Assembly (NCBI GenBank): GCA_015493615.1
Contig: WGCV01000047.1
Location: 1 to 64,000 of the forward strand
Length of the DNA: 64,000 nt
Direction of reading: 5' to 3'
Source: Melioribacteraceae bacterium
GTDB lineage: Bacteria > Bacteroidota > Ignavibacteria > Ignavibacteriales > Melioribacteraceae
Positions 451 to 50,836 of the stretch are shown one piece after another; position 1 is the first letter of the stretch; each line of letters starts with the position of its first letter. A model generated the notes under the pieces. That model was given only the letters and a program-made list of their open reading frames with translations, was not told the DNA's origin and ran no database searches. The position numbers were made by a program, and so were the translations under genes.

Positions 451-1167
451 ATGTTAAAGAAAAACGGAAAGAAGTTGGACAAAGACATTCAAAAAAATAA
501 AATATTATTACTCGGGAAACTTTTTGCAACGCTTGCGCATGAAATCCGCAACCCGCTTTCCGTTTTAAAGATTAATTTGGACTTAATTGAAATCCCGAAC
601 TCCAAAACAGAGGAAATTGAATTTCACGAAAGTATTTCGACAAGCAAAGAAGCGGTTGAACGAATAGAAACTCTTGTCGCCCAGACGATGGAATTTTTAC
701 GCGGCGGTGGCGAAGGGAAAACGCATGTTTCATTGATTGAAGTTGCGGAGAACGCTCATAAATTTTTGCTTTTCAGGGCGAATAAAGATAATATTGAACT
801 GATTACCGAATATGAGGCGGACCTTCCCAAAATAGTTGCAAATAAAAATGAAATTCTTCAAATAGTTATAAATTTGGTAAATAACGCCATGGATGCGGTT
901 AACACCGATGGCTACATTAAAATTAAAACTTATTCCGCCGGTGCGGAAGTTGTGCTTGAAGTGGAAGATAACGGAAGCGGCATCAAGCCGGAAATGCAGT
1001 CCAAAATTTTTGAAGAATATTATACTACTAAAAAAGGGGGAACGGGTTTGGGACTTGCAGTTTGTAACGAAATTGCTCAAAAAAACGGCGCTAAGCTGGA
1101 ATTTAGCAGCAAATATGGAGAAGGGACAAGTTTTTATGTCCGTTTTAAGAAGATTGGAGAAGTTTAA
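451..1167 (+). CDS. flgS: Sensor-less NtrB/FlgS-type histidine kinase
   Basis: Cytoplasmic histidine kinase of 238 residues from ATG 451. The H-box is LAHEIRNPLS with the phospho-accepting His at residue 30. The C-terminal ATPase has an N box (INLVNNAMDA), a DNGSG motif and a GTGLGL motif. Almost nothing precedes the H-box, so there is no sensor domain or membrane segment. That is how FlgS/FleS-type kinases, which read flagellar assembly state rather than an external ligand, can look. The neighbour 2 bases downstream is its evident partner, an NtrC-type activator. The start is uncertain: the sigma-54 promoter predicts +1 near 455, so ATG 451 may not be in the message, and TTG 475, with a GGAAAG a few bases before it, is an alternative. 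The name rests on context. Confidence 0.8.
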   Translation: MLKKNGKKLDKDIQKNKILLLGKLFATLAHEIRNPLSVLKINLDLIEIPNSKTEEIEFHESISTSKEAVERIETLVAQTMEFLRGGGEGKTHVSLIEVAENAHKFLLFRANKDNIELITEYEADLPKIVANKNEILQIVINLVNNAMDAVNTDGYIKIKTYSAGAEVVLEVEDNGSGIKPEMQSKIFEEYYTTKKGGTGLGLAVCNEIAQKNGAKLEFSSKYGEGTSFYVRFKKIGEV

Positions 1168-1169
1168 TT

Positions 1170-2555
1170 ATGGTTCCTAAAATATTAGTTATTGACGACG
1201 ACGACCTGGTTTGTAAAAGTTTGGAAAAGGTTATTAAAAGATTCGGCTATGAGGTTGAAGTTTGCATGGAAGCGGATAAAACTTTTAAGAAAGTTGAAGA
1301 AACAAATCCCGATATCGTACTTCTTGATATATATCTTAAACAAACCAGCGGACTGGACGTTCTGAAAGAACTGCAGATGAAATATCCTTACATTCCCGTA
1401 ATTATGATTACGGCTTTTGCAGACGTTAATATAGCGGTGAAAGCGATGAAACTGGGCGCTTTTGACTTTCTTTTGAAGCCGATTGAAATTGAATATTTAC
1501 AATTGATATTGGAAAAAGTAGTTAAGCATCTCAACTTAAAATACGAAGTCGATAAGCTGACAACGTTGGTCGAAGGCGAAAAAATTACACGCGAAATGTT
1601 CGGCAAAAGCAAGAATATAATAAGAGTTGTTAATGAGGTTGAGCATCTTGCTCAAAGCGAAGATACGACAATATTGCTTGAAGGCGAAAGTGGAACGGGT
1701 AAAGAAGTTTTTGCACGCTATATTCATCAGCAAAGCCCGCGAGCGGACAAAGTATTTATACCGATAAACTGCGGAACAATTCCAAAGGATTTAGCCGAAA
1801 GCGAGCTTTTCGGGCATGAAAAAGGGGCTTTTACCGGAGCATCGTCAAAAACCAAGTTAGGGAAGTTTGAGATTGCAAACAACGGTACGATTCTTCTTGA
1901 CGAGATAGGGGAGCTGAGTTTGGACTTGCAGGTAAAGCTTCTGCGAGTTCTTCAGGAGCGAAAATTTTACAGACTCGGCGGCGAAAAGGAAATAGCGCTG
2001 AATGTAAGAGTAATTGCCGCAACCAATAAAGATTTGGAAGAAGAAGTCCGGAAAGGAAACTTCAGAGAAGATTTGTATTATCGCCTGAATGTTGCAAAAA
2101 TAACATTGCCTCCTTTGCGCGAGCGGCGGGAGGATATTCCGATTCTCGCTTATTCGTTTCTAAATTTTTTCTCGTCAAAGTTCGGAAAATCGATTACTTC
2201 CATTTCCGAAGATGCAATGGATTTGATGCTGAAACAGCGCTGGAACGGAAATGTGCGCGAGCTTCGTAATTCAATTGAGCGCGCTATGTTAATGGCGGAG
2301 GGAAAAGAACTCAAAAGCAAGCATCTCTATTTCTTGAATCAGGAGGAAGAAATAAAAGATTCCGATAGTTATATTTTAAATATTCCTTCAAAAGGGATAA
2401 AAGTAGATGTTGTATTACGGGACTTAATACTTAAAACGCTGGAAATTACAAACGGCAATCAGGTGAAAGCCGCTAAGGTTTTAGGACTTTCACGTTCCAA
2501 ATTAAGATACAGAATGGAACAACTTGACATAGAGGTTACAAAAAAAATTGGCTAA
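1170..2555 (+). CDS. flgR: Sigma-54-dependent response regulator, FlgR/FleR type
   Basis: NtrC-family activator of 461 residues. It has an N-terminal receiver (acidic cluster at residues 9-12, phospho-acceptor D53 in VLLD) and a central AAA+ domain. The AAA+ domain carries Walker A GESGTGKE (172-179), the sigma-54 contact loop GAFTGA (219-224), the LLDEIGEL Walker B region and an R-finger region. A Fis-type helix-turn-helix (KAAKVLGLSRSKLRYRM) lies at the C-terminus. The family opens sigma-54 promoters by ATP hydrolysis. It sits directly after the kinase and next to flagellin and chemotaxis genes, so it is most likely the master regulator for the sigma-54 promoters found in this window, including its own. 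Confidence 0.9.
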   Translation: MVPKILVIDDDDLVCKSLEKVIKRFGYEVEVCMEADKTFKKVEETNPDIVLLDIYLKQTSGLDVLKELQMKYPYIPVIMITAFADVNIAVKAMKLGAFDFLLKPIEIEYLQLILEKVVKHLNLKYEVDKLTTLVEGEKITREMFGKSKNIIRVVNEVEHLAQSEDTTILLEGESGTGKEVFARYIHQQSPRADKVFIPINCGTIPKDLAESELFGHEKGAFTGASSKTKLGKFEIANNGTILLDEIGELSLDLQVKLLRVLQERKFYRLGGEKEIALNVRVIAATNKDLEEEVRKGNFREDLYYRLNVAKITLPPLRERREDIPILAYSFLNFFSSKFGKSITSISEDAMDLMLKQRWNGNVRELRNSIERAMLMAEGKELKSKHLYFLNQEEEIKDSDSYILNIPSKGIKVDVVLRDLILKTLEITNGNQVKAAKVLGLSRSKLRYRMEQLDIEVTKKIG

Positions 2556-10505: not shown

Positions 10506-10521
10506 TGGCATTGCATTTGCT
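10506..10521 (+). promoter_or_regulatory. Sigma-54 promoter of the flgBC-fliEFGHIJ operon
   Basis: TGGCATTGCATTTGCT has GG and GC 12 bases apart, a near-consensus sigma-54 site. Predicted +1 is about 10532, leaving a 19-base leader with an AGGTGAAG ribosome site before flgB at 10551. Confidence 0.85.
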
Positions 10522-33348: not shown

Positions 33349-33364
33349 TGGTATATTCTTTGTA
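33349..33364 (+). promoter_or_regulatory. Possible sigma-54 promoter of the fliA operon
   Basis: TGGTATATTCTTTGTA has TGG and TTG correctly spaced (first G of GG to the -12 G is 12 bases), but two consensus C positions are T. Predicted +1 is about 33375, 13 bases before ATG 33388. The 114-base gap before it (33274-33387) holds only AT-rich sequence with T-runs. Confidence 0.5.
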
Positions 33365-33387: not shown

Positions 33388-33630
33388 ATGAATAAAATAG
33401 TTCTAAATTTCGGTTTGCTTGTTTTTTTTCTGTCGATGATGTTTTTCAGCGCGCAGAATTTACCTGTGTTGGATGTTCTATTGCGTTCATTCGCTCTTTT
33501 TATTGTTGTTACAGTAATGACCGCCATACTGGTCATGGTCTTTTTTAAATCGGTTGGAAAAGCCATTTATAAAAAAGCCGTACAAAAACAGGAATCACTT
33601 ATGATGGGAAACGATAGTAATGAACACTAA
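33388..33630 (+). CDS. Small two-helix membrane protein upstream of fliA
   Basis: 80 residues from ATG 33388, preceded by AAGGAGA at a good distance; a longer frame to 33343 is excluded by the predicted promoter. There are two hydrophobic segments (about 6-24 and 32-54) and a charged C-terminus (KAVQKQESLMMGNDSNEH). I do not recognise a family. It overlaps the start of fliA by 11 bases, so the two are co-translated. It may simply be a lead gene of the operon or a small membrane regulator of FliA or the export gate. Confidence 0.7.
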   Translation: MNKIVLNFGLLVFFLSMMFFSAQNLPVLDVLLRSFALFIVVTVMTAILVMVFFKSVGKAIYKKAVQKQESLMMGNDSNEH

Positions 33631-34264
33631 AACTCTGTGGGAACTTTATAAAAAGAATCCGAATGAGTCGTTGAAAAGACAAATTATTGTTAATTACACT
33701 AATTTGGTTCATTACGTTATTCAAAACAGTCATTTTGTAAATCTCAATGTTGTGGAAGAAAAAGATTATTTTCAGTTCGGCGTTGAAGGTTTAAGCGAAG
33801 CCATTGACAGATTCGACCCTGATTTCGGCACTAAGTTCGAAACTTACGCAATCCAGCGGATTCGCGGAAAAATTATCGACGAGCTACGTAAGCTGCAGAT
33901 AAAACCCCGAAATAATTTTGACGAACAGGGCAACAGAAAGTATTCCAATATTTCGCTTGATTACAATTCATCTTCGGATGACGGTTATTCCCTGCATGAA
34001 ATTCTTCCTTCCGATGAACCGAAACCTGAAGAAGAATTTCAGAAATCGGAAGACAAGGAATTGCTGAAGGAGGCGATTAAGAATCTTACGGAAAGAGAAA
34101 GATTGATAATTTCACTTTACTACTACGAAAATTTAAACTACAAAGAGATTGCCGAAGCGCTCGAAGTTTCTGTGTCGCGAATCTCGCAGTTGCACTCAAA
34201 AGTAATGAATAAATTAAAAGAAATATTATTGAATAAATCCGGGACAAATTTTGAAAGATACTGA
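33620..34264 (+). CDS. fliA: Flagellar sigma factor FliA (sigma-28)
   Basis: 214 residues, a short FliA/WhiG-type sigma factor. Region 2 includes DYFQFGVEGLSEAIDRFDPDFGTKFETYA followed by IQRIRGKIIDELRK (the sigma-28 form of region 2.3-2.4). Region 4 contains LTERERLIISLYYYENLNYKEIAEALEVSVSRISQLHSK. It directs late flagellar genes such as flagellin. No flgM anti-sigma gene is in the window. Its 3' end overlaps the TTG start of the next gene. Confidence 0.93.
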   Translation: MNTKTLWELYKKNPNESLKRQIIVNYTNLVHYVIQNSHFVNLNVVEEKDYFQFGVEGLSEAIDRFDPDFGTKFETYAIQRIRGKIIDELRKLQIKPRNNFDEQGNRKYSNISLDYNSSSDDGYSLHEILPSDEPKPEEEFQKSEDKELLKEAIKNLTERERLIISLYYYENLNYKEIAEALEVSVSRISQLHSKVMNKLKEILLNKSGTNFERY

Positions 34265-35120
34265 AACCAAACGACAAGAAGTTTTTGAAACGCTCGAGAA
34301 CATTAATAACTTGCCGTCGGCTCCTGTTATATTGGCGCAAGTAACAAGATTGCTTGATAAGGAAGACACGAATGCGACAGATTTAAGTAACCTGATATCA
34401 AAAGACCAGGGACTTGTTACTAAAATTCTGGTCATTGCCAACTCTCCTTTATTCGGAATTCCGAGGAGAGTTTCGACAATAGATTTTGCGATTGTTATTT
34501 TGGGATTTAACCAAATTAAAAATATTGTGATTTCCCTTGCGATGATGGAAGCGTTTAAATCTATAAAAGGGAAGGAATTTGATCAAAAGAAATTTTGGCA
34601 GCATTCGATGCTTGCGGCCTATCTTTCAAAAAAGATAGCCGATGATTTGGGTTATTATTTCAGCGGAGACGCTTTTACGGCGGGATTGCTGCACGATTTG
34701 GGAATTCCGCTTATATTTAAATTTTTAAACGACAGGTACATTGAAATTTACAACAAGTCGAAAGAAACGGGAAGTTGTTTTGCCAAATATGAAACGGAAA
34801 TACTCGGCGCTACTCATGCGGATATTGGAAGATTTTTGATTGACAAATGGGGATTGCCGGAATCGCTGGCGGAAGTTACCGCATTTCATCATACTCCGGC
34901 AAAGTGCAGAGACGATTTTAAGGAAATTACTTTCGTTGTTCATTTGGCTGATTACATCTTAAACTTTACGGATATCGGAGGATTCGACTGGGACCAATCT
35001 TTGGAACTTGACGAAGGCGTTTACGACGCATTGAAGTTAAGCGGAAGTGAATATTTGGACGGATTAATCGAGCAATATAAACCGTTAATCGAAGAACAAT
35101 TAAACAGTACATTTATCTAA
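34251..35120 (+). CDS. HDOD-domain protein (1)
   Basis: 289 residues from TTG 34251, overlapping fliA by 14 bases. A single HDOD domain covers most of it (NLPSAPVILAQVTRLLDKED; SKDQGLVTKILVIANSPLFGIPRRVSTIDFAIVILGF; AGLLHDLGIPL; ATHADIGRFLIDKWGLPESLAEVTAFHH). HDOD proteins are HD-like regulators that generally lack phosphodiesterase activity and act through binding. It is a close paralog of the next gene. Translational coupling to fliA suggests a link to sigma-28 or late gene control, but this is an inference. Confidence 0.88.
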   Translation: MKDTETKRQEVFETLENINNLPSAPVILAQVTRLLDKEDTNATDLSNLISKDQGLVTKILVIANSPLFGIPRRVSTIDFAIVILGFNQIKNIVISLAMMEAFKSIKGKEFDQKKFWQHSMLAAYLSKKIADDLGYYFSGDAFTAGLLHDLGIPLIFKFLNDRYIEIYNKSKETGSCFAKYETEILGATHADIGRFLIDKWGLPESLAEVTAFHHTPAKCRDDFKEITFVVHLADYILNFTDIGGFDWDQSLELDEGVYDALKLSGSEYLDGLIEQYKPLIEEQLNSTFI

Positions 35121-35135
35121 TAAAAGAGTGGTAAA

Positions 35136-36008
35136 ATGAGCGAACAAGAATTAGAACAAAGGCGCAAACGGACTAAATTAGTCCTATCGAATGTGTACAA
35201 CTTACCTGCAGTTTCTCAGGTAATGATGGAAGTATCTAATATGTTAGATAACCCGACAACCAACACGGCAAAGCTCGGAGATATGATAGGAAAAGACCAG
35301 GGACTCGCGACAAAAATCCTGTCGATCGCAAATTCTCCTTTGTACGGCTTGCCCCGCAAAGTTACAACTATCGACTTTGCGATATTAATTATCGGTTATC
35401 AGGATATCAAAAATATTGTGATAGCTCTTTCCATGATTGAGTCGTTTAAAAACAAAACCGACAAATATCTCGACCAGAAGGAATTTTGGCTTCATTCCAT
35501 TTTAACCGGTAACGCGTCGAAACGTATTGCCGAAGATCTCGGTTTCAGAATCGGGAGCGAAGTCTTTGTATCGGGGTTACTTCACGATTTGGGTATTCCC
35601 GTTCTTCACAAATTCTTCCACACCGAGTTTATGGAAATTGTTGACGAAGTAAATGAAACCGGAAAGAGTTTCCACGAAGTTGAAATTGAAAAACTCGGTT
35701 ATGACCATCAGACGATCGGACGCTTTTTAGCCGAAAAATGGAACTTGCCGATGCAGCATTGTTCTACGATTGAAAATCATCATAATCCTTCGAAAGCCGA
35801 AGAAAACCAGGTAATGGCTTCCGTTGTTCATCTTGCCGATTATATGACTCAGGTATTGGAAATCGGTAACTTCTATTGGGATAATAATTATGTTCTCGAT
35901 GAATCGATTATCGATACGCTTAAATTCGGTTCGCGCGAAAAATTGGACGAGTTTGTATCCGGCTACAAAGAACTGTTCCAGCAGGAAATTGATAATTCAT
36001 TGATTTAA
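35136..36008 (+). CDS. HDOD-domain protein (2)
   Basis: 290 residues, colinear with the preceding HDOD protein along its whole length. The same blocks recur (NLPAVSQVMMEVSNMLDN; GKDQGLATKILSIANSPLYGLPRKVTTIDFAILIIGY; SGLLHDLGIPVLHKFF; YDHQTIGRFLAEKWNLPMQHC). It therefore arose by tandem gene duplication, now well diverged. The domain has no evident output. It is followed 11 bases later by a degenerate histidine kinase, so the three may form one regulatory unit. Confidence 0.88.
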   Translation: MSEQELEQRRKRTKLVLSNVYNLPAVSQVMMEVSNMLDNPTTNTAKLGDMIGKDQGLATKILSIANSPLYGLPRKVTTIDFAILIIGYQDIKNIVIALSMIESFKNKTDKYLDQKEFWLHSILTGNASKRIAEDLGFRIGSEVFVSGLLHDLGIPVLHKFFHTEFMEIVDEVNETGKSFHEVEIEKLGYDHQTIGRFLAEKWNLPMQHCSTIENHHNPSKAEENQVMASVVHLADYMTQVLEIGNFYWDNNYVLDESIIDTLKFGSREKLDEFVSGYKELFQQEIDNSLI

Positions 36009-36019
36009 GCGATTTAAGA

Positions 36020-37306
36020 GTGAAATTACATAAATTAAATACCGAAGAATACCCTACTTTCTATGAAGCTCTCGGAGCGGAGAAGGAGAGTTCGATAAAC
36101 GAGGAATTGGAGTTTATCGGCGGGAAAAAAATTGAGCCGGCTGTTTTAGCCGAAAAATATTCTCATATTATTCAGAACTTAATTTTGTTTGAGAATGAAA
36201 GTCAATCCGTCAACAATCTTGATTCCCTTGTCGGAATGTTTAAGCTAGCCGTACGAAGAATCGTTCCGGCAAAATCATCCGAAGTTTTTTTCTTTGCAGA
36301 AAACAAAGGGGAGCTTAAAGCGTTATCGAACGATTTTGATTCCTCTCTTTTAGAAGTTGCGAACAGATTTCATAAAGAGGGTATTCTTTCCGTAATTTTT
36401 GAGAGTAAATCATCTTATGTTTTCCCCGACTTGGACAGTTACACTGAAAAAGGAACAGAGTTAAATTATCTCGTTTTCCCGATTATCCGGGATAATGTGG
36501 ATAAAGGCATTTTCATTATCAAATCTACAATCAGCCGCGAAAATTTAACCGAAATCGACAAAAGAATGATTCAAGTGCTGCTGAATACTACAATCACAAA
36601 GATCGAAAAAATAATTTATAAGCAGAAACTTAACTCGGCTTACGAAGAATTGCAGATTTATCAGGGAAAACTTTCAAACGATTTCCGTCTTTCCGCAATC
36701 GGAGAGTTAACCGAAGGAATCTTGGAAGATATTTCTTCTCCGCTTCAGACGATTATAAGTCTGGTGGAAGTGCTTGACGTTGAGGATACGAACGCGATTG
36801 AGATTTCGAAGATTAAGAGCCAGGTTCATAAAATTAACAAAACTGTTGGTCGTCTAATTCGCTTTACTAATCTTAATCAGAAGAGCGTAAAACTTCTTCC
36901 CTTAAATTTGAACAAAGTTGTTTCCGATTATTACAATATAGTTAAGTCAACTTTGGATACGGCAAAAATCGAATGCGTTCTGGATTTTGAAGAAGAAATT
37001 CCTTCGATTTTGAGTCACGCAAACTATATCAACCAAATCCTTACCAATATATTCGGAATTATCCGGAAGAATAAGGAAGGACGAAGCGGAATAATAATCC
37101 AGACAAGATACAGAAACGACAACATCTATTTGAGAATTATCACTACAATTCAGTTAAACGAAGAGAAATTAAAACCTGAATTGAACTACAAAATAGTTCA
37201 GAATCTGGTTAAAAAACATGAAGGCAGTTTTTCCATTAAGGAATCTATTGACGGCGGTTCGACAATTCTGCTCGGATTTCCGTTAATCAGAAAAATCAGA
37301 GGTTAG
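36020..37306 (+). CDS. GAF-type histidine pseudokinase
   Basis: 428 residues from GTG 36020. There is a GAF-like region (about 60-195), a coiled helix (about 195-222), a DHp-like region and a C-terminal ATPase-like fold. In the DHp region the normal GIAHEINNPL reads GILEDISSPL, so the phospho-accepting His is Glu236 and the following acidic residue is Asp. The ATPase part keeps a weak N box (NQILTNIFGIIRKN) and a late KIVQNLVKKHEGSFSIKES segment, but has no DxGxG and no GxGLG motif. It should neither bind ATP normally nor autophosphorylate. It probably acts as a sensor or scaffold next to the HDOD proteins. Confidence 0.8.
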   Translation: MKLHKLNTEEYPTFYEALGAEKESSINEELEFIGGKKIEPAVLAEKYSHIIQNLILFENESQSVNNLDSLVGMFKLAVRRIVPAKSSEVFFFAENKGELKALSNDFDSSLLEVANRFHKEGILSVIFESKSSYVFPDLDSYTEKGTELNYLVFPIIRDNVDKGIFIIKSTISRENLTEIDKRMIQVLLNTTITKIEKIIYKQKLNSAYEELQIYQGKLSNDFRLSAIGELTEGILEDISSPLQTIISLVEVLDVEDTNAIEISKIKSQVHKINKTVGRLIRFTNLNQKSVKLLPLNLNKVVSDYYNIVKSTLDTAKIECVLDFEEEIPSILSHANYINQILTNIFGIIRKNKEGRSGIIIQTRYRNDNIYLRIITTIQLNEEKLKPELNYKIVQNLVKKHEGSFSIKESIDGGSTILLGFPLIRKIRG

Positions 37307-37309
37307 ATT

Positions 37310-37900
37310 TTGAAAAGGTTGTTTTTCATAGCGTTTATTTTTGCGTTAGGAGTAACGGCTAATTACGCACAGGAAGCGACAATAACCGAAGGAAAAATTG
37401 AGACTGATATTCATACAATTTTAAATAAGCAGATTGCCGAAGCAAAACAAAAATTAAATAATCATACCTTAAATTCAACAACTCAAACTATTTCCGAAGG
37501 AAATACCTCAGTAAAACACTCAGAAAAAATTCCAAAAGAGAGCAGTTGGTTAAATTTGTCCAATTTTTCTTTTGGGAAGAAGCAATTATTCCCCTTTTTC
37601 CTGCTAATCGAGGTTTTATTAATTGGTACAATCCTTGCAATATGGATTAAGAGTAGAAGACTCCCGAACGGGAACAATGAAGTTGAACTAAAAGAGGTGG
37701 TACGAAAAATGAGAATGGAAAAGATAGGTTCAAAGTTTGACCCGGAAATTTCCGAACTTCGTTCATCTCTTACGGAACAAAACTTTACTGTTACCGACGG
37801 AGGAAAGTCTATTACAAAATTTGCAAGGAAAAAGAAAATTGCCAAAGGAGAATTGCAGCTCGCGATGAAACTCCGGATTTTGGCAAGCATGTACAAATAA
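37310..37900 (+). CDS. Membrane-anchored unknown protein with signal peptide
   Basis: 196 residues from TTG 37310. Signal peptide about 1-20 (ending NYAQ), a short polar periplasmic stretch, a membrane segment (about 93-113) and a basic cytoplasmic tail. The tail ends ITKFARKKKIAKGELQLAMKLRILASMYK (in outline), a pattern loosely like the end of small flagellar-operon membrane proteins such as DUF6115/DUF2802 or SwrB, which also lie near fliA/sigD. That likeness is weak. It starts 4 bases after the pseudokinase, so it could be its membrane partner. Confidence 0.65.
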   Translation: MKRLFFIAFIFALGVTANYAQEATITEGKIETDIHTILNKQIAEAKQKLNNHTLNSTTQTISEGNTSVKHSEKIPKESSWLNLSNFSFGKKQLFPFFLLIEVLLIGTILAIWIKSRRLPNGNNEVELKEVVRKMRMEKIGSKFDPEISELRSSLTEQNFTVTDGGKSITKFARKKKIAKGELQLAMKLRILASMYK

Positions 37901-37924: not shown

Positions 37925-39091
37925 ATGATTGGACGTATCGAGAATATTAATTCTTCGATAGGGGAAGTTAAGATTGTTGCATCGAGAGTAAGAAAAAATT
38001 TACCCAAAATTAACTCCCTTGTAAAAATCGAAGTGCTTGAAAAGCTAAAAGGCAACTACAAGATTTTAGTTGACGGAGAGCTGTATCAAAGCAAATTGCC
38101 GATAAAAGCAAAAGCGGGAGACATAATGATGGGACAATTGGCGAACTTAAATCCTTTGACAATAAAGCTTGATTCTTTCGGCGGAATTGAATTATCCGCA
38201 AGCGGAACGGTCGGAATAATCTTAAAGGAACTTGGGCTTGCAAAAACGGAACTTGCCGAAAAGCTGATTGCAGAGTTGATTAAATCCCACAAGCATTTGT
38301 CCAAAGAAAAAATAGAGCGATTTCTTGACTTTGCAGGCAACTCGTTAACGAACTTGGACAAGCTCCAATTCGGACTGTTAATTGCGATGATTTGGAACGA
38401 CGGCGATTCCTATTCCGCTCGGGAAAAGAGGGCGGTTTTCAGCAGAGTGTTCGACATTTCGTTTTGGGATTTGGCGGACAGAATTTTTGAAGAAGTAATC
38501 AATCTTAAAAAATCAAATCTTCCCGAATCGGTCGAAATAATACTTGATGAAAAAACGGTTTTTGATTATAAGGAATTCGATGAGAAAAAAGTTCTATCCG
38601 GAATCAGCTCCAAGGTGCGAAATTATATTGAGCTGACCGACTTTATTGAGGAAGGCGTTGCCGGAAACCGTTTTGATTCGTTAGTCGGGAAATCATTTAA
38701 CAGATTGAGCGATCTTCTCGTAAAATATGTTTTGCAGAAAGCGCTTTTAAACAAGTACAAAATTTATATTGATTTTACAATCGCTCGCAACGATAACGGC
38801 TACAGACTCTGGAAATTTTCCTACAACAAAATTATTAACAAGCTCGGCGAAGCGGTTTACAAGTTTGAAACTTACGCCGAAGATAAAATTTCGTCGATAG
38901 ATTATGAACTTTATCTTGTCGGCGATAAAGTACGCGGAAAAATTGAGACAACCGACATTAAAGAGGAACGGAGACTGAAATTTGAAACCGACTTTAAGAA
39001 CGCCGTCAGAAAACAAGCGGCTAATCAAGCGGAGTTAAATTGGCTTAAACGTAGAAGAAATATCGCGGCAAACAGAGAAGATAATATCTAA
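37925..39091 (+). CDS. FliK-like protein, possible second hook-length-control homolog
   Basis: 388 residues. The N-terminal part (about 30-85) has a small beta domain with LVKIEVLEKLKGNYKILVDG and LPIKAKAGDIMMGQLANLNPLTIKL. This resembles the N-terminal beta unit in FliK-like proteins of delta-proteobacteria and other phyla. The rest is helical, with a C-terminal region ending in a Lys/Arg-rich tail. I see no clear FliK C-core, so the name is tentative. It is encoded between the membrane unknown and the rod genes flgF and flgG, well away from fliK. Confidence 0.55.
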   Translation: MIGRIENINSSIGEVKIVASRVRKNLPKINSLVKIEVLEKLKGNYKILVDGELYQSKLPIKAKAGDIMMGQLANLNPLTIKLDSFGGIELSASGTVGIILKELGLAKTELAEKLIAELIKSHKHLSKEKIERFLDFAGNSLTNLDKLQFGLLIAMIWNDGDSYSAREKRAVFSRVFDISFWDLADRIFEEVINLKKSNLPESVEIILDEKTVFDYKEFDEKKVLSGISSKVRNYIELTDFIEEGVAGNRFDSLVGKSFNRLSDLLVKYVLQKALLNKYKIYIDFTIARNDNGYRLWKFSYNKIINKLGEAVYKFETYAEDKISSIDYELYLVGDKVRGKIETTDIKEERRLKFETDFKNAVRKQAANQAELNWLKRRRNIAANREDNI

Positions 39092-46757: not shown

Positions 46758-47150
46758 ATGAAAATAAAAAACAATAAATTCGGAGAGTTGGAATTCGATG
46801 AGAATATAATCATCGAATTTACGGATGGAGTAGTCGGTTTCGAGAACTTCAAGAAATTTATCCTTGTTACGGAAGAGGAAGGACTTTTTTATTGGCTTAC
46901 TTCAATAGAGGAACCTGAGATAATTTTCCCTCTTTTCCCGACTGCTTTGCTGGATGAAAATTATCCGCAGGAAGAAGGTTATGAGGCTTACGGAATCGTA
47001 AAATTAGCCAAAGAAGTAACCGATATTTCCATTAATCTTAAAGCTCCGATTTATATTAATCACGAAGAGAAAAAAGGATTCCAAAAGATATTCGACAGCG
47101 ACAAATTCGAAATTAACAAACAACTATTTGTAGAAAGTAAAAGCGAATAA
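46758..47150 (+). CDS. fliW: Flagellar assembly factor FliW
   Basis: 130 residues, the usual FliW size, with ITEFTDGVVGFENFKKFILV-like start (here IIEFTDGVVGFENFKKF), SIEEPEIIFPLFPTALLDENY and LKAPIYINHEEKKGFQ. FliW binds CsrA and flagellin competitively, so it reports flagellin level to translation control. csrA follows after 2 bases. Confidence 0.95.
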   Translation: MKIKNNKFGELEFDENIIIEFTDGVVGFENFKKFILVTEEEGLFYWLTSIEEPEIIFPLFPTALLDENYPQEEGYEAYGIVKLAKEVTDISINLKAPIYINHEEKKGFQKIFDSDKFEINKQLFVESKSE

Positions 47151-47152
47151 AT

Positions 47153-47392
47153 ATGCTTGTATTATCAAGGAAGCAAAACGAAAAAATAAGGATTGGAAAA
47201 GATATTGTTATTACAATAGTAAATCTTTCCGATAACAGCGTTAAAATCGGTATTGAAGCCCCTAACTCAGTCAAAATTTTAAGAGACGAGCTTTACGAAA
47301 GCGTAAAGCAACAAGTCAGCGAAGCTCAAAAACATACGGCTGAAGTTGATTCCGATATGCTTAAAAAATTAAAAGAACGGTTTAAAAAATAA
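47153..47392 (+). CDS. csrA: Carbon storage regulator CsrA
   Basis: 79 residues starting MLVLSRKQNEKIRIGKDI, then VKIGIEAPNSVKILRDELYE, the full CsrA pattern including the Arg that contacts GGA motifs. It has about 18 extra C-terminal residues compared with the shortest CsrA, the form that tends to bind FliW. It represses translation of mRNAs that have GGA at or near the ribosome site; possible target at 22200-22284. Confidence 0.95.
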   Translation: MLVLSRKQNEKIRIGKDIVITIVNLSDNSVKIGIEAPNSVKILRDELYESVKQQVSEAQKHTAEVDSDMLKKLKERFKK

Positions 47393-48973: not shown

Positions 48974-49774
48974 ATGGCGGGCGAGCAAGGAAATCATAAC
49001 GAAGAACCTGTAATAATCTCCAAAGGCAAAAAATGCGGAGGAGGTCATCACGGCGGGGCTTGGAAAGTAGCTTATTCCGATTTTGTAACCGCAATGATGG
49101 CGCTCTTTATCGTTCTTTGGGTTCTGGCTCAGTCTGACGAAATAAAAACTTCGGTAGCTCATTATTTCCAAAATCCCACAATACTGGGAATTAGCGGAAG
49201 CAAAAGTTTTATGAAAGGGCAGGGCCCCGGAACCGGAAAAGAAGAAATAAAAGGAGAAATAAAAAACAGCAAAGAGGAAAATAACAAAGATGTTGAAAAG
49301 CAAATTCTGATAAAAAAAGGGAAAGCGATTATATCCCTTCTGCAGGGAACTCCCGATCTTTCCTCTTTACTCGATCAGGTTGACGTACAAATAACATCCG
49401 AAGGATTGCGAATAGAACTGCTCGATAATAAAGGAACATTTTTTAAATCCGGAAGCGATAAGCTGAATCCGCTGGCTAGGAAAATGCTTTTTGTTATAGG
49501 AAAACAGCTTAGCGAGATAAATAATAAAATTGTTGTGGAAGGGCATACCGACGCGCGTCCGATTCCTCCTAATTCCAAAGGAATTACGAATTTTGAGTTA
49601 AGCGTAAACAGAGCTAACGCGGCGCGGCGTGTTTTAGTAGCCGCCGGAGTCCCGCTGGATCAAATAGACGAAGTGCGCGGTTACGCATCCAACCGTCTTC
49701 GCGATCCTTCGCATCCTTACAGTCCCGTAAACAGGAGAATCAGTATTTTAGTTAAATTTGAGCAGGTGCTTTGA
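48974..49774 (+). CDS. motB: Flagellar stator protein MotB
   Basis: 266 residues. Basic N-terminus, one membrane segment (about 30-52) with the proton-carrying Asp D36 in WKVAYSDFVTAMMALFIVLW, a Lys/Glu-rich linker with plug-like potential (about 78-110), and a C-terminal OmpA-like peptidoglycan-binding domain (VVEGHTDARPI, LSVNRANAARRVLVAAGV, NRRISILVKF). Asp plus no Na+-type PomB features points to proton drive, but this is not proven by sequence. Confidence 0.95.
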   Translation: MAGEQGNHNEEPVIISKGKKCGGGHHGGAWKVAYSDFVTAMMALFIVLWVLAQSDEIKTSVAHYFQNPTILGISGSKSFMKGQGPGTGKEEIKGEIKNSKEENNKDVEKQILIKKGKAIISLLQGTPDLSSLLDQVDVQITSEGLRIELLDNKGTFFKSGSDKLNPLARKMLFVIGKQLSEINNKIVVEGHTDARPIPPNSKGITNFELSVNRANAARRVLVAAGVPLDQIDEVRGYASNRLRDPSHPYSPVNRRISILVKFEQVL

Positions 49775-49775
49775 A

Positions 49776-50168
49776 ATGGGGAAGATAATATTGGTAATAG
49801 AAGACGATCCGCTCATTCTGCAGTTTTATAAATATATCTTTGAGTTTGAAAAGATGGAAGCCGTAATCTCGGAAGATTACGAAGAAATTATGAATATTGT
49901 TAAGACAAAAAATGTCGGCTTAATAATTATGGACGTTAATCTGAGAAATACATATATTAACGAAGAAAGAACCGACGGAATCGAGCTTTCCAGAATCATC
50001 AAAACTGACGAGCGTTTTAATGATATTCCGATTATTTTGGTCTCGGCATACAATCTGAAGGTTTTGGACGAAGAAAGCATTGAAAATAGTTTGGCTGATG
50101 ATTTTATTCTTAAGCCGATAACCGATTACAATGGATTTATGACAAAAGTAAAAGCGCTGATAAATTAA
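49776..50168 (+). CDS. Single-domain response regulator downstream of motB
   Basis: 130 residues from ATG 49776, 1 base after the motB stop. Receiver with EDD at the acidic pocket, phospho-acceptor D53 in LIIMDVNL, and KPI. An insert (RNTYINEERTDG) follows the phospho-acceptor strand. It has no output domain. One base of overlap with the next REC-DHp gene suggests joint translation and a shared relay. Confidence 0.8.
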   Translation: MGKIILVIEDDPLILQFYKYIFEFEKMEAVISEDYEEIMNIVKTKNVGLIIMDVNLRNTYINEERTDGIELSRIIKTDERFNDIPIILVSAYNLKVLDEESIENSLADDFILKPITDYNGFMTKVKALIN

Positions 50169-50836
50169 TGGATTTAGATAGAAATAATATACTTATCGTT
50201 GAAGATAACATTGACAACGCTTACGCGCTCTCGAAAAATTTAGAGCTTAACGGTTATGAAACAAAAATTGTTTATAACGGCGTTCAAGCTTTGGATGTTA
50301 TTGACGAATACCAGCCCCGTGTGATTATCGCCGATTGGACAATGCCGGAAATGGACGGGCTTTCTCTGCTTGAAACTCTGCGCGAAAAAGAAGAATATAA
50401 GGATATCTACTTTATTATGCTTACGGCGCGCGGAACAATTAAAGATCAGGTTGAGGGAATTACTTGCGGCGCCGATAACTTTCTTGTTAAACCGGCGGAC
50501 CCGGGAGTGATTGTAGCATACGTAAAAGCCGGAATGCGGATTACTCAGCTTCAGGAAGAATTGAAAAAAGCCGAGCATTCCAAAGCCCTTGTTGAGATGG
50601 CTTTTACAGCCGGACATCAAATTAATAATCCTCTTGCCGGAATGTTAATGAGTTTGGAGACAATCAAAGCCGAACTTGACCGGGAATCTTTAGAAAAAAT
50701 AAGCGATGAGTTAAAAATAATTGAAGAATCAATCCAGAGGATTAAAGCAGCTGTAAATCAGCTTACTAATTTGAAAAACCCGAAACTTATCAGCTACACT
50801 TCCGATACTCACATGCTCGATTTGGAAGAAGACTAA
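50168..50836 (+). CDS. Receiver fused to a DHp-like domain without ATPase
   Basis: 222 residues. N-terminal receiver with ED pair, phospho-acceptor D56 in VIIADWTMPEMDG and VKPA. A coiled linker (about 122-142) leads to a DHp-like helical hairpin with H150 in FTAGHQINNPLAGMLMSLE. The protein ends about 70 residues later in an acidic tail, with no room for the ATP-binding domain. It could act like a phosphotransfer protein or as a dimeric partner for another kinase. Part of the motAB-linked signalling group. Confidence 0.8.
   Translation: MDLDRNNILIVEDNIDNAYALSKNLELNGYETKIVYNGVQALDVIDEYQPRVIIADWTMPEMDGLSLLETLREKEEYKDIYFIMLTARGTIKDQVEGITCGADNFLVKPADPGVIVAYVKAGMRITQLQEELKKAEHSKALVEMAFTAGHQINNPLAGMLMSLETIKAELDRESLEKISDELKIIEESIQRIKAAVNQLTNLKNPKLISYTSDTHMLDLEED

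Follow-up and report, generated by a model that had tools for sequence, protein, structure and literature searches.

Gene content and order at the fliA locus

The window analysed here, a stretch of 64,000 nucleotides from a Melioribacteraceae bacterium (order Ignavibacteriales, class Ignavibacteria; contig WGCV01000047.1), contains one tight run of five genes. The sigma-28 gene fliA is followed by two HDOD genes (HDOD1 and HDOD2), a gene for a histidine pseudokinase (HKL) and a gene for a membrane protein (TMP), with spacings of -14, +15, +11 and +3 bases (Table 1). The original prediction, made from the sequence alone, described these five genes with a 14-base overlap and gaps below 20 bases, and our coordinates and spacings agree with it. 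It overlooked s95, a small hydrophobic conserved protein in front of fliA which looks like two membrane helices, and it also passed over an element resembling a promoter at 33349 and the genes of likely partners at 451-2555 and 49758-50836.

Conservation was assessed in 58 relatives, and 40 loci of the order were fetched for gene order. FlhA was present in 44 of the 58 relatives and the HDOD1 query found matches in 43, the presence of FlhA and HDOD being concordant in 57 of the 58 genomes. The sole discordant genome, G043, has FlhA, no clear FliA and no HDOD; its locus (L076) reads fliL-M-N-P-R-flhB-flhA-flhF-flhG, lacks fliA, HDOD and HKL, and is not followed by flgF-flgG. Among the 40 order loci the order s95-fliA-HDOD-HDOD-HKL-TMP-flgF-flgG was kept with some exceptions, namely two single-HDOD loci (L064, L072), one damaged locus (L037) and contig ends, and it was kept in L063, L065 and L066 although flhA-flhF-flhG is not located just upstream in these. 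Named genomes scanned with an HKL alignment belonged to Melioribacteraceae, Ignavibacteriaceae, other Ignavibacteria or unplaced Bacteroidetes bins and had the same order, and across the class fliA-HDOD-HKL-flgF was found in all 16 flagellated loci fetched. Within the order the set is a conserved unit that flagellated relatives have and non-flagellated ones lack, a pattern which the original prediction had named as support for a flagellar role. Chance or an annotation artefact as the source of the gene set was rejected, because the order is conserved across relatives. The damaged locus, from a genome of the same genus (G003), has stop codons in flhA and HKL while both HDOD genes are open, and its flagellar cluster is in decay.

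Gene overlaps were frequent in the order loci, being found between fliA and HDOD1 in 29 of 39, between HDOD2 and HKL in 22 of 37 and between HKL and TMP in 32 of 37. That these overlaps recur across loci speaks for translational coupling of the operon genes, and co-transcription is plausible.

Table 1 Features of the window considered in this study
Feature	Position	Strand	Remarks
s95	33391..33630	+	small membrane protein; first operon gene, overlaps fliA; also found in relatives
fliA (sigma-28)	33620..34264	+	family matches
HDOD1	34251..35120	+	TTG start; metal ligands kept
HDOD2	35136..36008	+	ATG start; paralog in tandem with HDOD1 (45% identity); metal ligands kept
HKL, GAF-DHp-CA histidine pseudokinase	36020..37306	+	GTG start
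TMP, membrane protein	37310..37900	+	TTG start
Sigma-54-spaced element TGGTATATTCTTTGTA	33349..33364	+	upstream of s95-fliA-HDOD-HDOD-HKL-TMP
Sigma-54-spaced element, ~45 bp upstream of flgB	10506..10520	+	sequence pattern
Histidine kinase of the NtrC pair, sensor-less, with intact His (HisKA+HATPase_c)	451..1167	+	kinase comparison across order and class
NtrC-type sigma-54 activator (REC-AAA-Fis, GAFTGA)	1170..2555	+	ortholog in 29/30 genomes tested
Stand-alone receiver	49758..50168	+	in flagellum-free relatives the ortholog comes directly after HKL
Receiver-DHp protein	50168..50836	+	ortholog follows receiver in flagellum-free relatives

HKL is a pseudokinase of kinase ancestry

HKL stayed below the Pfam threshold for HisKA, and its NCBIfam matches were to AtoS/ZraS-like kinases. 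The phospho-acceptor histidine is replaced, the sequence being GILEDISSP compared to GxxHExxNP of kinases, and both glycine boxes are absent. The phospho-acceptor histidine and the N, G1 and G2 boxes are missing both from the HKL of the window and from all full-length Ignavibacteriales HKLs examined, the histidine being replaced mostly by glutamate. The earlier description of a kinase-like protein without its catalytic residues therefore holds order-wide. The predicted model (mean pLDDT 79) shows a GAF domain, long dimer helices and a CA-like sandwich, and the best structural matches were the kinases ZraS, ThkA and NtrB together with the pseudokinase DivL (Z 17.7). Of these kinases, ZraS and NtrB each work with an NtrC-type regulator. 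A fold shared with these proteins, seen here in a predicted model, shows no function.

Outside the order, the same position is occupied in families f5, f7, f10, f14, f18 and f19 (L144-L160) by intact GAF-HisKA-HATPase kinases. These class orthologs carry the HEIKNP, NLxxNA, DTGxGI and GTGLGL boxes (four were checked in Pfam). The tree shows two clades, one of pseudokinases (100/100) and one of intact kinases (99/98). The predicted model, structural matches, synteny and tree agree with a GAF-DHp-CA architecture and with common descent with sensor histidine kinases. Judged from the sequences, HKL is the descendant of a working GAF-histidine kinase, and catalysis was lost in Ignavibacteriales.

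When compared with a near relative (G004), the ratio of non-synonymous to synonymous substitution (dN/dS) was 0.040 for HKL, from which we conclude that the gene is under purifying selection; the value for HDOD2 was close (0.031), and s95 had no amino-acid changes. Invariant residues are scattered along the whole of HKL, and this together with the low dN/dS led us to reject the idea of a decaying pseudogene.

The HDOD proteins

HDOD1 and HDOD2 match PF08668 at 194 and 186 bits, respectively (cut-off 22.9), and both also exceed the cut-off of the catalytic-type HD family PF01966. From the metal ligand pattern H..HD..H..HH..D, the H, HD, HH and D of both paralogs are kept by almost all members in alignments of 38-40 sequences, and the third histidine (H189 in HDOD1, H191 in HDOD2) is invariant. 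The closest structures to HDOD1 were 3hc1 (Z 27.1) and SadB (9qzk, Z 26.4), and the folds of Cj0248 (1vqr), HD-GYP and PgpH were also matched. The original prediction regarded the HDOD proteins as non-enzymatic, and since the ligands are conserved in nearly every member and PF01966 is matched, the sequences do not bear this out. Ligand retention is not special to the operon proteins, because other HDOD proteins of the same genome also keep most HD ligands. We know of no HDOD protein with demonstrated phosphodiesterase activity. Families f21 and f27-f31, which in many cases have FlhA, gave distant HDOD matches.

The membrane protein TMP

TMP has a signal peptide, a periplasmic part, one helix (by eye) and a cytoplasmic C-terminal tail with KGE-x2-LA. 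Among 36 TMP sequences R135, E137, R151, E181 and L184 are invariant. In FipA (DUF2802), which binds FlhF, residues G110, E126 and L129 are 100% conserved (PMC11620751). The same spacings of 16 and 3 occur in TMP, with the E and L in all 36 sequences and the G in 11, including that of the window, and by eye the spacing was also seen in SwrB of B. velezensis, the protein after sigD. DUF6115 was not matched by the TMP of the window and was matched by two of the 36 relatives (best E 0.001; one at 15.4 bits, with the cut-off at 27). Pfam scans of the TMP consensus and of single members otherwise gave noise only, and hhalign comparison of the TMP profile with SwrB/DUF6115 was weak (probability 4%). 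Based on these motifs TMP may be SwrB/DUF6115/FipA-like, with a homology that is not statistically secure. If the likeness is real, the fourth gene after fliA is a known kind of flagellar accessory.

The sigma-54-type element and the NtrC system

The sigma-54 consensus is TGGCAC-N5-TTGC, and the pattern scored here was TGG[CT]A[CT]-N5-TTG. All 40 order genomes have an element of this type 31-49 bp before the s95 start, compared to an average of 0.018 genomes with shuffled sequences.

The NtrC-type regulator of the window adjoins a cytoplasmic kinase, and the flagellar cluster includes FlhF and FlhG, a combination characteristic of FlgSR-type systems. In the order, 21-34 residues separate the H box of the NtrC kinase from the beginning of its open frame (13 of 13 genomes), whereas elsewhere in the class it lies at residue 225 or later, after receiver-like sequence (16 of 16). 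A kinase without a sensor and a GAF kinase without catalysis thus occur in the same order. FlgM-like open reading frames (ORFs) were found in 12 of the 58 genomes, immediately before the NtrC kinase in several relatives and at a contig edge in the genome studied (G000:C3:280-420). A replacement of FlgM by the HDOD pair, which had been considered, is disfavoured by these ORFs.

Reduced loci as natural deletions

In family f13, six genomes lack both FlhA and FliP (L161-L163, L173-L175). They keep one locus, NtrC-sigma28-HDOD-HKL-REC-REC/DHp, in which the protein between HDOD and the receiver is HKL-like as far as it can be read (L175 ends at its contig edge), and all six carry the promoter-like element upstream of the sigma gene. 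The identities are 57-60% for NtrC (window 1170-2555), 39-44% for sigma-28, 32-38% for the one HDOD protein, 36-40% for the receiver (window 49758-50168) and 38-41% for the receiver-DHp protein (window 50168-50836). In the three f13 HKLs aligned, the histidine is kept and the ATP pocket is lost. Linkage of the HDOD pair to unrelated functions in genomes without flagella was what the prediction had named as speaking against a flagellar role. HDOD is indeed kept without flagella in f13, but beside the same regulators and not unrelated functions.

Genome G267 had no match for FlhA, FliP or true FliA and keeps FliF-FliG-FliL-FliM-FliN-s95-HDOD-HKL-MotA-MotB, with an intact HKL (L158, L170). Its NtrC (52% identical) is on the same contig as the rotor and stator genes, and it is possible that this genome has a flagellar rotor/stator without an export gate. 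The contig also carries an ORF of 3358 amino acids. The suggestion that the gene set is tied to sigma-28 stands in so far as co-transcription with fliA is plausible; it is weakened by G267, where HDOD, HKL and NtrC are kept without a FliA match, while f13 keeps both NtrC and sigma-28. As NtrC is the regulator shared by f13 and G267, we place HDOD and HKL on the NtrC/sigma-54 branch.

Other observations in the window

A conserved ORF with no Pfam family above cut-off lies between TMP and flgF (37925-39091), with related ORFs in 15 order loci. FliW-like and CsrA-like ORFs follow flgL (46758-47392, by eye), which suggests that flagellin is under FliW-CsrA-type control, and the contig starts inside an apparent flagellin C-terminus (1-87, AMLAQLNMAPQQVLQLFR). 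Outside the window, L095 (G034:C55) has a second fliA copy, 58% identical, beside a receiver-DHp gene and without HDOD.

Discussion

We tentatively favour, at less than even confidence, the interpretation that HDOD and HKL form a cytoplasmic sensory adaptor of an NtrC/sigma-54 flagellar checkpoint similar to FlgSR, and are not an anti-factor of sigma-28. NtrC and its kinase would switch on the s95-fliA-HDOD-HDOD-HKL-TMP operon and flgB via sigma-54-type promoters. The HKL of Ignavibacteriales, having lost phosphoryl chemistry, would work in the manner of DivL or RetS, its GAF domain, dimer helices and CA fold binding and biasing the 451-1167 kinase, NtrC or the nearby receivers. The HDOD proteins would be ligand- or metal-dependent binding partners which set the state of HKL, and the operon products would exert feedback at the point where rod/hook and fliA transcription is switched. 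The gene set with its order and conservation, the loss of catalysis, the selection on HKL, the conserved promoter-like element and the joint retention with NtrC in two reduced lineages are observed, and the physical contacts, the direction of control and the nature of the signal are what we infer in this model.

Several observations weigh against the checkpoint interpretation. The C of the -12 GC of the element is present in only 15 of the 40 genomes and the strict pattern in only 1 of 17 other class loci, for which reason the sigma-54 assignment is given as probable. The tree places f13 with weak support (81/58). The metagenome-assembled genome G267 is 94% complete and spread over 410 contigs, so that missing genes may reflect an assembly gap, and as it is fragmented the placement with NtrC rests mainly on f13. 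HKL could also act on sigma-28 or on the rotor instead.

Each part of the proposed checkpoint has a known relative, and we regard the gene set as a variant of flagellum-associated two-component control. In polar flagellates, two-component systems of the FlgS type read the assembly of the MS-ring, rotor and export apparatus (PMC7064773). FlgSR, FlrBC and FleSR have, like the set described here, an NtrC-type activator together with a cytoplasmic kinase, FlhF/FlhG belonging to the same gene set (PMC7064773), and the sigma-54-type elements before flgB and s95-fliA, recognised by sequence, would be a further likeness; a second, dead kinase and two HDODs inside the fliA operon are not part of those systems as described. 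DivL of Caulobacter also combines a sensor, DHp and CA fold with lost catalytic function (PMC4211667), whereas HKL has a GAF domain in place of PAS domains, sits in an Ignavibacteria fliA operon and has mostly glutamate instead of the histidine. The HDOD proteins SadB, GsmR, Cj0248 and PSPTO_4229 affect flagellar motility; as described, they lack the tandem arrangement, the fliA operon and the pseudokinase found here, and SadB has an extra YbaK domain. SwrB of B. subtilis (PMC4526659) and FipA of gamma-proteobacteria (PMC11620751) are, like TMP, single-helix membrane proteins encoded after sigD/fliA or its operon, and part of the TMP family shares the G-x15-E-x2-L spacing. TMP differs from both in having a signal peptide and a periplasmic stretch before the helix.

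A related and rather unlikely explanation is that of a split sensor kinase, in which dead HKL and the two HDODs would be the sensory half, and the sensor-less NtrC kinase the catalytic half, of one checkpoint reading flagellar assembly or a nucleotide signal. Loss of the sensor in one kinase and loss of catalysis in the other are both seen in this order; they may have arisen on one branch, and the one may have led to the other.

It appears fairly improbable that HDOD/HKL and TMP act post-transcriptionally at the flagellar base, activating the export gate or placing the flagellum with FlhF, as SwrB and FipA do. TMP has the position of SwrB (after sigD) and of FipA (after the flhF-flhG-fliA operon), the invariant E181 and L184 have the FipA spacing with the G at -16 in part of the family, two members match DUF6115, and in G267 HDOD and HKL adjoin rotor and stator genes. 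However, the profile comparison of TMP with SwrB/DUF6115 was weak, and f13 keeps HDOD and HKL without the export genes FlhA and FliP.

The original prediction suggested that the complex perhaps controls FliA activity; a direct action of HKL and/or HDOD on FliA is in our view quite unlikely. The tight coupling to fliA, the retention of sigma-28 with HDOD and HKL in six FlhA-less genomes and the GHKL nature of the CA fold would suit an anti- or pro-sigma device with the logic of SpoIIAB/RsbW. SpoIIAB-type factors, however, need ATP-binding boxes, and these are lost from HKL; in addition, FlgM-like ORFs exist in the order, G267 keeps HDOD and HKL without a true FliA match, and the class orthologs of HKL are ordinary kinases. 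Least probable, and in our opinion very doubtful, is a second-messenger input to motility through HDODs that are active phosphohydrolases of cyclic or linear nucleotides with HKL as regulatory subunit: the conserved ligands of both paralogs with their invariant third histidine, the PF01966 scores and the HD-GYP and PgpH structural matches favour it, but other HDODs of the genome keep most ligands as well, and the HDOD of SadB, a protein that binds c-di-GMP, is described as inactive (PMC6543031).

In the open-licence literature searched, we did not find this combination in a fliA operon or the class-wide contrast between kinase and pseudokinase, and for Ignavibacteria with fliA and flagella only work on Rhodothermales turned up. 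In the few annotated records of plasmid-borne fliA neighbourhoods, no HDOD was annotated beside fliA; these neighbourhoods also provided a SwrB to compare with TMP.

Regulators of motility that are HDOD proteins have been met repeatedly, with no mechanism known for them, and here such proteins share one operon with sigma-28 and a kinase across a large part of a bacterial class. The conversion of that kinase from an intact enzyme to a conserved dead protein can be traced in the sequences, providing a clear case of a kinase that has apparently taken on a new, non-enzymatic role in signalling. Relatives without a flagellum or without FliA are deletion experiments made by nature, and they point to NtrC, its kinase and two receivers as likely partners, so that the HDOD question becomes directly testable by a few interaction assays. 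The gene set points to an unstudied control circuit for building the flagellum.

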